Source of the DNA: an uncultured Desulfosporosinus sp.
GTDB taxonomy: Bacteria > Bacillota > Desulfitobacteriia > Desulfitobacteriales > Desulfitobacteriaceae
Length of the DNA stretch: 64,000 bases
Assembly (NCBI GenBank): GCA_927405585.1
Contig: CAKMJS010000029.1
Coordinates: 1-64,000, forward strand
Direction of reading: 5' to 3'
Part shown: positions 32,322 through 59,849 of the stretch, in pieces
Numbering within the stretch: position 1 is the first letter of the stretch
Layout: every line of letters starts with the position of its first letter
Position numbers and translations under genes: made by a program
The notes under the pieces: generated by a model
Told to the model about the DNA's origin: nothing
Seen by the model: the letters and a program-made list of their open reading frames with translations, nothing else
Databases searched by the model: none

Positions 32322-33386
32322 TTAGTTGAACGAGTTCACGAGGTTTTCTTTCACCATCCAGTTATCAAACTGAAGACGAAGCTCAGTGTTAAATAATGGC
32401 AAGTACTTATGGACATGGGTTCTCAATTGGGTTAGTGCATACTCATTTTTTCCCAGATTATTCCAAAGCCAATAACTATCAATAATTAAGTAAAACGCTA
32501 AATCAGGCTTAGGGTCTCGGGATAAAGCATTGGAAAAATAGGCTGCTGCTTGTTCAAAATTCCCTGAATTTTTTTCTTCAAATCCTAAATCAACGAGTTC
32601 ATCTGTTTGTAAGACTCCCACTTCTTCTAGTAGGAGTGGGAACCCGTACACTTCTTCGGTGACGCTAGTCTCCAGTGCGAAAGCCTCCACTGCGCTTGTC
32701 TCCGGTACAATTATCTCCTCTATGACTGTCTCCTCTACGACTATTTCCTTTACGGTTGTCTCTTGTACGTACGTCTCTTGTCTGATTATCTCTTGTTCGA
32801 TTATCTCCGGTGGAGAATATGTCTGAAGTCTTGATCGTAAAAGAAATGCCGATCGTCGAAGGATGGGCTTGCACCGAGGCGCCCTTCCCAATAAGCACGC
32901 TTCTGCGGCATAGAGGGTAGACACGGTCACCGAAGTCTTGTTGTTCAAATCAATGTGTTTATCGTTAGGTAACACTTTAAGATTAACAGGACTGTCTGAA
33001 TGAACCACGTTCACCTGAATTGGTTCGTCCAATCGTGGCACTTCCACTTCTAGAAGTGGGAGTGGAAGGTTTTCATGTTTAATAATATCTTGGTCAATGG
33101 TTTTTAATTTTTCACTAATTTCGGACGACAATAGTTCGCCCTTTGTCTTGAAAATTAGTCCTCTTGTCCATAATATTGACAAAATAAACAGTACGATTAT
33201 GGAAAGAAACCACCAGTTAATCCACCCTAGCCGAAGTGCCCAAGGAAATAGCATCACAACTCCACTCAAATAGACCATTAAAAAAAATGCACTCTTTTTG
33301 TTTAATCCAAAGACATTAGCTTTCGAAATGAAAAACACTACAAACGGTATACTTCCCAAAAAAACGGTAATTTGATATTCAAGAAT
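32322..33386 (-). CDS. Membrane protein with pentapeptide-type acidic repeats; possible AUU start
   Basis: An unrecognised protein of about 354 residues: two or three N-terminal membrane helices (FVVFFIS, AFFLMVYLSGVVMLFPWAL, WWFLSIIVLFILSILW), a charged linker, a low-complexity run of five-residue repeats (QETTV, KEIVV, EETVI, EEIIV), and a C-terminal TPR-like region (NFEQAAAYFSNALSRDPKPDLAFYLI). A TTG at 33359 has no ribosome site. An in-frame ATT at 33384-33386 lies 7 bp after aaaagggggga and would give a natural start, MLEYQITVF. The start is therefore uncertain. The gene leads a minus-strand unit with the PRC-barrel and VanW genes. Confidence 0.65.
   Translation of the reverse strand: MLEYQITVFLGSIPFVVFFISKANVFGLNKKSAFFLMVYLSGVVMLFPWALRLGWINWWFLSIIVLFILSILWTRGLIFKTKGELLSSEISEKLKTIDQDIIKHENLPLPLLEVEVPRLDEPIQVNVVHSDSPVNLKVLPNDKHIDLNNKTSVTVSTLYAAEACLLGRAPRCKPILRRSAFLLRSRLQTYSPPEIIEQEIIRQETYVQETTVKEIVVEETVIEEIIVPETSAVEAFALETSVTEEVYGFPLLLEEVGVLQTDELVDLGFEEKNSGNFEQAAAYFSNALSRDPKPDLAFYLIIDSYWLWNNLGKNEYALTQLRTHVHKYLPLFNTELRLQFDNWMVKENLVNSFN
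32661..32812 (-). repeat. Imperfect 15-bp tandem repeats inside the membrane-protein gene
   Basis: About ten imperfect copies of a 15-bp unit near gtctcctctacgact, read on the plus strand. They encode the five-residue acidic/hydrophobic repeat of the gene above. The period is a multiple of 3, so changes in copy number keep the frame. Confidence 0.7.
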
Positions 33387-57151: not shown

Positions 57152-58738
57152 TCACCTAAAGAAAGATGCCTTATACAACCGTTGATATCGCTGTAAAGCT
57201 CGAATAGCTGTTAGTGCCGTAGTTAAAGGTTCTTCATAATTCCATCCTTTAGCGTAGATCCCTCCAAAAGACGCTTCAAATGAACCAATGCTGGTCTGTA
57301 CCCTGAGAAGATTTCGTATTCCATTATGAAATATTGCACTTGGAATCACTTTAGCATTGCGCCATAAACTAGCAAGTGCCAAGCTGGTATCCACAACAGA
57401 ACCCCAGCCCCCGTCACTGCTCTGTGCATTAATTAGGAACTCCTGCGCTCTCGTTCTTGATCTATAGATCTGACCCGCGTTACTCCACCTTCTCCAACTA
57501 AACTCCCACTTATAAAGCAGTTCTAAAACTTGTGCAGTACTATAGACCGGCCCCTCAAACCAAGATGACGGAAAGGAGCCTTCCTCATCCTGTTGGTCTA
57601 GAACCCAAGATATCCCTCGCGAGATACCCTCATATTGAGAACGAGAGCTCCGCCATAACGCCTCAAGGACATGAATACTAACGTCAACACTAGGAATATA
57701 TACAGGGAACCCTGAAGATATTTCGGGTGGAATGCCATGAAAACTGGGAAACGTTCCCCAACTTCCATTTGTATTTTGTAACTGCTTGAGGAGATTAATT
57801 CCTAACGGATTCTCTTCGCCGAGCACCTGATGCAACCCTATTAAAGCAACGGAAGTATCATCCAAATCAGGATGCGTGTACGGTGGAGTACTTCCATAAC
57901 TACCATCAATATTTGAACCCTTCTTTAGCCAATCTACCGTTTGCAAGAGCCAAGGAACATCAGAAGGGTTCTGAACAGTTTCTCCGAAGACACATGCAGT
58001 CCAGCCCATAGCCCATATCTTGAGTTGGTCAAAAGCAGGCCATCCACCGCTTAGATACTGTTTCTGAACCAACCATTGTCCAGCTCTCTGTGTCGGTTCA
58101 GAATAGTCGCCCTTACTCAATAGAGCGAGGATTGACATACTCGTGACTATAACATCCTCTGACCATGAACCATCCGTCATTTGTGTTTCCAAAAGATATT
58201 GAATTCCTTTATGAGTTCCTTCTCGAGAGTTTGTGGCAAGAAGTGACGCGGCCACAATGATTGGTCTACCATACATCGGCAACTTAGTTATAACTCTCTC
58301 TTCGAGAATCTTCGGAAGCAATATCTCTTCCTTCGTAGGACCCTCCAAACCAGGAACTACAGCTTGGCCTAAGGTTAAAATCAAAGATGAAAAATATCGC
58401 GCTTGAGCTAAAAGCTTAAGCTTTGCCTTCCACCCGCCTTGACTCCCCATGAGGACCATCCGGACAAGCTGCGTCAACTCACCATCCGGTTTGTCACCAG
58501 GAAACTTCCCCCATCCACCTCGTTGCTGCTGCTTCAGCCATTGTATTCCACGTTGCTGAGCATTCTCAAACCCTCTTCCTACTGCTAGTAAAGCAAGAGC
58601 GGCAAGCGCCGTTGCCCCAGGGCTTGCAGATACACTATGCATTTCATCGCAATTTCCAGAAAGGATCTGTTCTACGCCCTCGACCACATAATACCGTGCT
58701 TTCTCAAGACCAGCGTGGACTTCTTTCTTCAACTCCAT
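57152..58738 (-). CDS. Squalene-hopene-cyclase-like (prenyltransferase/squalene-oxidase repeat) protein
   Basis: A 528-residue alpha/alpha-barrel protein with QW-type repeats: QQRGGWGKF (71-79), QMTDGSW, QYLSGGWPAF, QNTNGSWGTF, NAQSSDGGWG. The class II cyclase acid PDLDDTS (DxDD at 291-294) is intact, so protonation-type terpene cyclisation is possible. It is about 100 residues shorter than squalene-hopene cyclase or the Bacillus sporulenol synthase (about 630). No prenyl-synthase or squalene-synthase partner is near. Alternatives: a squalene/sesquarterpene cyclase or a cyclase-like structural protein. ATG 58738 lacks a clear ribosome site, and a candidate RNA block lies upstream. Confidence 0.75.
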   Translation of the reverse strand: MELKKEVHAGLEKARYYVVEGVEQILSGNCDEMHSVSASPGATALAALALLAVGRGFENAQQRGIQWLKQQQRGGWGKFPGDKPDGELTQLVRMVLMGSQGGWKAKLKLLAQARYFSSLILTLGQAVVPGLEGPTKEEILLPKILEERVITKLPMYGRPIIVAASLLATNSREGTHKGIQYLLETQMTDGSWSEDVIVTSMSILALLSKGDYSEPTQRAGQWLVQKQYLSGGWPAFDQLKIWAMGWTACVFGETVQNPSDVPWLLQTVDWLKKGSNIDGSYGSTPPYTHPDLDDTSVALIGLHQVLGEENPLGINLLKQLQNTNGSWGTFPSFHGIPPEISSGFPVYIPSVDVSIHVLEALWRSSRSQYEGISRGISWVLDQQDEEGSFPSSWFEGPVYSTAQVLELLYKWEFSWRRWSNAGQIYRSRTRAQEFLINAQSSDGGWGSVVDTSLALASLWRNAKVIPSAIFHNGIRNLLRVQTSIGSFEASFGGIYAKGWNYEEPLTTALTAIRALQRYQRLYKASFFR

Positions 58739-58888
58739 AGCACCGTCTCCGTCAATCTATTTAGCGCATGCCATAGTATGATTTATGATAGATGACGGAA
58801 AATTGTTCCAAACAGAAGAAACGTCGAACCGTTATTGGCCGACGTTCTTTACTTAAAAAAATAGCTCCTAGAATACTAAAAGCATTCG

Positions 58889-59301
58889 CTATGCAAGTCC
58901 ACGGGATGCAAACAAGAACCGTCCCCGACTTGCACTAAGCGCGCCTTTGTGTCAAAGACGCAAACAGCCTCCCAAACGCTCCAACCACCGTTCCACTCCC
59001 GGTCAACCCAAGCTAGAGGAAGTTTCTTAGCTTAGGGAGCACGGAGAGAGGAAGCGCGTCAATGAAACGCAGTCGATAAGGCGTGAAGAAACGCAACTGG
59101 CTTGTCCAAGGATGGACTGATGTCGCGGTGCCATGGATGGCAAGGAGCGACGCGCACATGCAGAAAGCACAAGGGTTTTGCGTTTTAGCTTTAGCGACAA
59201 GAGAATAGCACGATAGTCTCCGGTGGAGAGTATCGCCGAAGCCGCGATCCCTAAGGAATACTTACCGGCGTAGGATTGGAACGTGTGCGACTGCGCTAAG
59301 A
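58889..59301. other. GC-richer gene-free block with nested inverted repeats, candidate structured RNA
   Basis: No open frame with a start and ribosome site spans this block. It holds many short perfect stems: GCAAGTC/GACTTGC (58893-58899, 58927-58933); a nested set CCGT/ACGG (58988-58991, 59041-59044), CTCCC/GGGAG (58996-59000, 59035-59039) and AAGCTA/TAGCTT (59010-59015, 59028-59033); GCGT/ACGC at 59056-59070 and 59081-59094; GTCCA/TGGAC (59104-59117); GTCGC/GCGAC around TGCCA/TGGCA (59122-59151); TCTCC/GGAGA (59217-59229); CGCCG/CGGCG (59234-59270). Base content is visibly richer in G+C than the flanks. A large structured RNA or a decayed mobile element would fit. Strand unknown. A further hairpin AACGTCG/CGACGTT lies at about 58821-58845. 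Confidence 0.4.
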
Positions 59302-59311
59302 CACTGACTCT

Positions 59312-59764
59312 CTATAGCATGCGACTTACTGCTATCTCATCACAATTGGGGAACTTGATACAATTAATACACTCTGACCATACTTTTTGTGGCATTTGAT
59401 CTTTACTAACTTCATCATAACCACAGTATTTAAAGAACTCTGGCTGATAAGTCAACGCAAAAAGTCTTGTACAACCCAGTTCCCTTGCTTCTTCTTCTAG
59501 GGCTCTAACTATCTGCGTTCCAATCCCTCTTCGCTTGTAGCCACTTGAAACTGCCAATGCTCGTATTTCTGCCAAGTCACTCCAAAGGATATGGAGTGAC
59601 GCAACCCCGACTAATTGGTTATCTTCTTCCGCTAGCAGGAATTCACGTATATTTTCATATAGCATATTTCTAGAGCGGGGAAGCATGAGTCCTTGCTCTG
59701 CATTACTATTAATCAATAACATCATCTCTTCAACATCTGATATACGAGCTTTACGCAATTTCAT
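59312..59764 (-). CDS. GNAT N-acetyltransferase (ArgA-like short form)
   Basis: About 150 residues: MKLRKARISDVEEMMLLINSNAEQGLMLPRSRNMLYENIREFLLAEE, then acetyl-CoA loop AVSSGYKRRGIGTQIVRALEEEARELGC and TYQPEFFKYCGYDEVSKDQMPQKVW. The GLMLPRS and FF.k.GY segments match the short N-acetylglutamate-synthase-like group, which acetylates glutamate or related compounds. Two Cys near the C-terminus (INCIKFPNCDE) are typical. Start at 59764 (aaaaggag upstream) is preferred over 59818. No arg genes in the window. Confidence 0.85.
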   Translation of the reverse strand: MKLRKARISDVEEMMLLINSNAEQGLMLPRSRNMLYENIREFLLAEEDNQLVGVASLHILWSDLAEIRALAVSSGYKRRGIGTQIVRALEEEARELGCTRLFALTYQPEFFKYCGYDEVSKDQMPQKVWSECINCIKFPNCDEIAVSRML

Positions 59765-59849
59765 CGAAATACTCCTTTTGTTTTGCATAATTATACAACA
59801 TACACTATATTTCTGCATCTTTTTTTGAATAAGGATTTCCTAATAAGCG

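Follow-up and report, generated by a model that had tools for sequence, protein, structure and literature searches.

A gene-free block in a Desulfosporosinus genome is a mosaic of dispersed repeats built on a covarying seven-helix backbone

We analysed a 64,000-nt stretch (the window) of contig CAKMJS010000029.1 from an uncultured Desulfosporosinus sp., in which a gene-free block lies between two minus-strand genes. On its left is a gene for a putative squalene–hopene/prenyltransferase-like (SHC-like) protein of 528 aa (57152–58738), which served as a synteny marker, and on its right a gene for a putative GNAT-type acetyltransferase of 168 aa (59312–59818); both assignments were made by eye. 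An earlier note on this DNA had described the block as gene-free and unlike its flanks in composition, and both descriptions held: there is no ORF of at least 60 aa between 58738 and 59312, and the GC content is about 54% versus 32–49% in most flanking windows, with the sign of the GC skew flipped. ARAGORN found no tRNA or tmRNA in the block. A terminator-like hairpin (AACGTCGAACC..GGCCGACGTT; 58820–58846) lies between the two genes, outside the element, and is also present in relatives that lack the element. The flanking genes, which had been called well separated, are not so on the right side, where the element sits directly behind the GNAT gene and stops about 1 bp short of its stop codon.

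Rather than one RNA gene, the block is made up of several dispersed repeats of this genome, joined as a mosaic. It opens with a REP-like palindrome (GCAAGTC..GAACCGTCCCCGACTTGC; 58893–58933), followed by a plus-strand backbone of about 250 nt (58941–59310) that carries two inserts, modules B and C. The backbone is contiguous in aligned copies without inserts, and the window copy has two extra segments. Its parts, as judged from aligned copies, are a conserved 5′ hairpin (GCGCCTTTGTGTCAAAGACGCAAACAGCC; 58941–58969), a variable C-rich linker (58970–59003) and a rod core containing both insertions (59004–59310), the last recognized by covariation, a pairing control and a covariance model match. 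That model (R1) matched the window copy at 59004–59237 with 77 bits, the 3′ part being displaced by module C. Helix P1 is formed by GAGGAAGTTTCTTAGC (59016–59031) and GCTAAGACACTGACTC (59295–59310), the latter being the 3′ end of the element that abuts the GNAT stop codon; these arms are inverted repeats, of which one lies at the 3′ end of the element and the other not at its outer 5′ end. GCAC (59039–59042) pairs with GTGC (59285–59288) in P2, and the 5′ strand of P3, AGCGC (59053–59057), has a 3′ strand split by module C (59208–59209 and about 59274–59276). P5 joins GTCGATAAGGC (59072–59082) to 59188–59198, and P6 joins AAACGCAA (59089–59096) to TTGCGTTT (59178–59185). Mutual information (MI) supported P1, P2, P3, P5 and P6, and the pairing control also supported P1, P5 and P6. 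Compared with its dinucleotide shuffles, the block folds more stably, modestly so on the plus strand (z = −2.4) and more clearly on the minus strand (z = −3.5). Elsewhere, three loci hold a sister group that diverges from the backbone and has both P1 arms changed (GAAATGTAATTGC / GCAATTTCATT), and at four loci the 3′ tail is found in tandem duplicate, either as ACTTCCTCCC / ACTTCCTCCT units or as a larger GAACG..CTTCCTC unit.

The short stems named in the earlier note are all present where it placed them. Stems of 4–6 bp within 400 bp are alone not beyond chance; covariation across copies is. We computed MI on a profile alignment of 127 non-redundant copies without assuming any structure and found nested Watson–Crick pairs at the top of the ranking, which together describe one rod of seven helices and 46 pairs. 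Across these copies, 92.8% of cells were paired and both sides had changed at 32 of the 46 pairs, whereas sliding the partner strand by 1–3 columns left 31–40% of cells paired and 4–8 pairs with both-side changes. In a shuffle control on 22 sequences, 92.3% of cells were paired compared with 82.6 ± 0.5% after shuffling, and none of 500 shuffles reached the observed value. RNAalifold returned almost no structure for the 127 copies, probably because of alignment gaps, and we therefore relied on MI on the profile alignment. The same rod was evident in 34 distant members from other genera (mean identity 58%), in which 94.3% of cells were paired, both sides had changed at 43 of the 46 pairs and the covariation score was 0.751 versus 0.201 ± 0.010 after shuffling; this alignment was fitted to the plus-strand model and leans towards it, and slid controls dropped to 20–47% paired. 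The unpaired stretches AGCGAACC, GGTTMACATCAGG, AAGYGAACAGC and GGTGARCGG appeared by eye to be conserved in this set. The rod fold is real and is kept by compensatory change, the absence of which from related genomes the earlier note had named as a refutation. By contrast, the three-level nested stem proposed there did not survive as a conserved structure: at the two levels scored on a reduced alignment, 55% of cells were paired for CTCCC/GGGAG and 73% for AAGCTA/TAGCTT, and the stem competes with P1, whose arms the earlier note did not list. The two stems with 4-nt loops (AGGA and TGGA) proved real and covary within module B. Of the proposed large structured RNA, what remains is a large covarying structured element; the single RNA gene gives way to a backbone that was later invaded twice, with a REP-like palindrome beside it.

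Pieces of the block gave 65 matches in its own genome, with recurring breakpoints, and matches with modular boundaries were found in 45 of 60 relatives. A scan of named genomes with a backbone motif returned 45 stretches, all from Desulfosporosinus. A covariance model made from 22 copies reached further, with matches at E ≤ 0.01 in 57 of the order's 73 genomes searched, which represent 18 of the 22 genera covered. The earlier note had recognized no RNA class here, and Rfam searches of the window and of near and distant copies, at gathering and relaxed thresholds, likewise gave no match of the element to HEARO, group II introns, T-boxes, riboswitches or any other family; the same search detected a nearby T-box, tRNA and glycine riboswitch, which shows that it works. 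We also found no account of the backbone family in the literature searched, which consisted mostly of non-subscription journals. The family thus appears to be previously unlisted, a statement that rests on its absence from Rfam and from that literature and is no proof of first description.

Evidence of recent movement came from G066, a relative in another genus with about 48 matches. One subfamily in this genome comprises 13 near-identical copies with only 2 distinct 184-nt cores, which indicates that the family moved recently. Likeness between the copies extends no more than 14 bp to the left and about 54–64 bp to the right, which shows that they did not arise as larger segmental duplications. 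As in MITEs, backbone copies have no ORF, are numerous and intergenic, and are polymorphic for presence or absence; comparison of the syntenic locus and of the G066 copies established no target-site duplication. There is good support for a dispersed, mobile and structured repeat family that lacks ORFs and carries nested insertions. The main alternative in the earlier note, a decayed mobile element, was right about mobility, although the element is an ORF-less repeat and not a decayed insertion sequence.

The history of the locus can be followed because the GNAT and SHC-like genes are adjacent throughout the genus. Thirteen relatives have a gap of 124–194 bp between these genes and no backbone, and the terminator-like hairpin is present in all 11 of them whose gap sequence was inspected. 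In G002 and G013 a clean backbone, free of B and C, occupies the corresponding position directly behind the GNAT stop codon and has the same orientation, and the syntenic gap of a further relative holds a decayed backbone (recognized by eye) with a REPIN-like palindrome. As B and C are missing from the orthologous copies in G002 and G013, they are most simply read as later insertions in the lineage of the present genome, precise loss in both relatives seeming less likely. Module B (59099–59151, plus strand) occupies the apical loop and comprises the hairpins GTCCA-AGGA-TGGAC and GTCGC..TGCCA-TGGA-TGGCA..GCGAC; its loops, A[AT]GGAT (59105–59141), are constant while the stems covary. Module C (about 59210–59276, plus strand) consists of a ACGATAGTCTCC..GGAGAGTATCG hairpin and a second stem and ends in GGCGTAGGAT. 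Both of its stems covary, with Watson–Crick-for-Watson–Crick swaps and almost no G·U. The modules also occur alone in this genome (in total, 19 matches for B and 46 for C). Nested modules have preferred sites: of the module C copies, 33 lie at three places in the backbone's 3′ part and a further 26 in the loop of another C hairpin. A weak module C-like match (70% identity) occurs elsewhere in the window, at 32798–32867.

The palindrome on the left of the backbone probably belongs to a separate, RAYT-linked repeat. Its GAACCGTCCCC motif (58916–58926) recurs at another locus of this genome (L141, 1393–2260), where a RAYT-like Y1 transposase of 256 aa lies between inverted GGGGACGGTTC / GAACCGTCCCC palindromes, and 19 of 80 copies have such a motif at their start or in the 120 bp preceding it. 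The flanks of this RAYT gene contain only GGGGACGGTTC repeats; the motifs of the backbone, B and C are all absent. This genome has two Y1 transposases, neither of which adjoins a backbone copy, and none was seen near copies of B or C. RAYT-associated REPs carry GTAG or GTGG heads (PMC2817692). The backbone, at about 250 nt and 46 pairs, has neither the size nor the head of a REP or REPIN, and it is the GAACCGTCCCC palindrome, itself comparable to a REP in size, and not the backbone, B or C, that flanks a RAYT gene.

In Desulfosporosinus, where genes were called mechanically as ORFs of at least 90 aa, an opposing gene has its stop codon no more than 12 bp from the element's 3′ end in 28 of 41 cases, compared with 4.0 ± 1.7 expected from uniform placement in gaps. 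The flank class '<E><' outnumbers '>E>>' by 66 to 22, and no intact copy has its 5′ end less than 45 bp from a gene. At five loci, host frames reach an element-like tail and use its stop, the encoded C terminus being ..EEVS or a variant such as EEAS or ESVY. Elements lie on the GC-skew-negative strand in a ratio of 91:32, or 51:9 in loci of at least 11 kb. Since 93% of coding is on the other (leading) strand, the effects of replication and gene orientation are inseparable. We rejected strand-specific insertion on the lagging strand as an explanation, as the 51:9 bias is confounded by gene orientation and is not seen in recent copies; those in G066 show no clear orientation preference (6 '<E><', 5 '>E>>' and 1 '>E><'). 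Cells with G·U outnumber those with A·C by 107 to 63 in Desulfosporosinus and by 43 to 6 in the distant set, whose alignment was fitted to the plus-strand model, which favors the plus strand. For an RNA, G·U is rare overall (about 2–3% of cells), and single-stranded DNA would also be compatible with this.

The block is probably an old copy of a non-autonomous, ORF-less, structured mobile repeat family of this order that is copied in trans. A single strand, most likely the plus strand here, would fold into a long seven-helix rod with conserved internal loops, and the folded strand, either RNA or single-stranded DNA, would be recognized by an enzyme supplied in trans that copies it into intergenic sites. 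Insertions behind stop codons would be tolerated. The hairpin modules may spread by a similar process and, since loops or junctions are where most of them land, would be tolerated too. We hypothesize that the fold acts in copying, and does so as RNA. Counting against this explanation are the distance of both Y1 transposases from any backbone copy, the rarity of G·U pairs, the failure to establish a target-site duplication and the tight fit to stop codons, which neutral insertion leaves unexplained. A more specific version, which we regard as tentative, is a SINE-like retro-repeat: an undescribed, order-wide, seven-helix RNA family copied in trans whose loops serve as a landing pad for smaller hairpins.

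The stop-codon fit (28/41 versus 4.0 ± 1.7) is also a point for a different reading, in which the repeat was recruited by the host as a 3′-UTR module (an mRNA stabilizer, a terminator-proximal structure or an antisense RNA) and selection keeps the fold. The excess of '<E><' over '>E>>' flanks (66 versus 22) and the several host ORFs that terminate within the element, at ..EEVS or a variant, agree with it, and BIME, ERIC, NEMIS, Efa and Ype provide precedents as transcribed structured repeats near gene 3′ ends (PMC1590033). We nevertheless consider this reading unlikely: relatives differ in whether the locus is occupied, recent G066 copies lack an orientation preference, the native terminator-like hairpin remains beyond the element, and the strand with the better support runs antisense to the host gene. 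Doubtful, too, is a substrate for single-stranded DNA transposition, with the hairpins recognized on the lagging-strand template by a Y1 transposase of the IS200/IS605 or RAYT type. The seven-helix fold is much larger than REPs, no Y1 gene turned up in the vicinity of the backbone or of either module, recent copies are unbiased and the 51:9 strand ratio is inseparable from gene orientation, although that ratio, the Watson–Crick swaps of module C, its GGCGTAGGAT end, which recalls the GTAG/GTGG heads of RAYT REPs (PMC2817692), and the RAYT gene with GGGGACGGTTC repeats in this genome all point in its direction.

Two further readings have less in their favor. Quasi-palindrome correction by template switching could change both arms of a helix together without any function, and low frequencies of G·U and A·C, together with many C–G to G–C and T–A to A–T swaps, are consistent with such an artefact. 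Template switching should erase internal mismatches, however, and these are conserved with the loops across genera (58% mean identity) while the helices change, which makes the artefact very unlikely. We think it most improbable that module B is a CsrA-binding hairpin of a Csr sponge-like RNA. Its A[AT]GGAT loops, which fit the ANGGA hairpin loops that CsrA sponge RNAs carry in multiple copies, are kept while the stems covary, CsrA occurs in 50 of 60 relatives, and the hairpins presumably resemble the CsrA SELEX hairpin and TwoAYGGAY; yet three genomes have CsrA without the motif, and two others, both incomplete, have the motif with no CsrA found.

A family of mobile repeats invites comparison with REP, REPIN and BIME repeats and their RAYTs (PMC2817692, PMC3116915), which share dispersed intergenic palindromes, mosaic structure, compensatory changes and the lack of an ORF; a RAYT flanked by REP-like repeats occurs in this genome. 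The units described here are longer (about 175–250 nt with seven helices, versus 20–60 nt for REPs), and the RAYT is not linked to the backbone, B or C, with the backbone also departing from the GTAG head rule. ERIC, NEMIS, Efa and Ype are likewise structured intergenic repeats near gene 3′ ends, some of them exceeding REPs in size (PMC1590033). By description, not by sequence, the present family is set apart from these by a covarying multi-helix rod, conserved internal loops, order-wide distribution and nested hairpins. The non-coding repeats known from bacteria are mostly simple palindromes, whereas here a gene-less mobile repeat covaries as strongly as an established structured RNA. It gives tractable access to two questions, namely which agent copies repeats of this kind and in which form, RNA or single-stranded DNA, they are copied. 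Any mechanism will have to account for two separate regularities, hairpin-in-loop insertion and the fit to stop codons. BOX elements of Streptococcus are also modular, with a fixed boxA, boxB and boxC order, whereas the present modules B and C are also found alone. HEARO, the IsrB omega-RNA, is a large structured RNA that spreads as a repeat, as the present element may do, but here there is no Rfam match and no ORF. In cyanobacteria, as Elhai reportedly described in 2008, small dispersed repeats (SDR) are nested inside other repeats. Very small repeats inside other repeats, with heptamer arrays nearby (here in G066 only), are common to both systems, although lineage and sequences differ and the host repeat here has a deep covarying fold. 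Such 7-nt arrays are almost absent from Desulfosporosinus loci and reach about 33 per 100 kb in the G066 loci, where degenerate tandem arrays (CTGACTC, CTGAATT, CAGTAGT and CAGGAGT; L309–L328) flank the recent copies.
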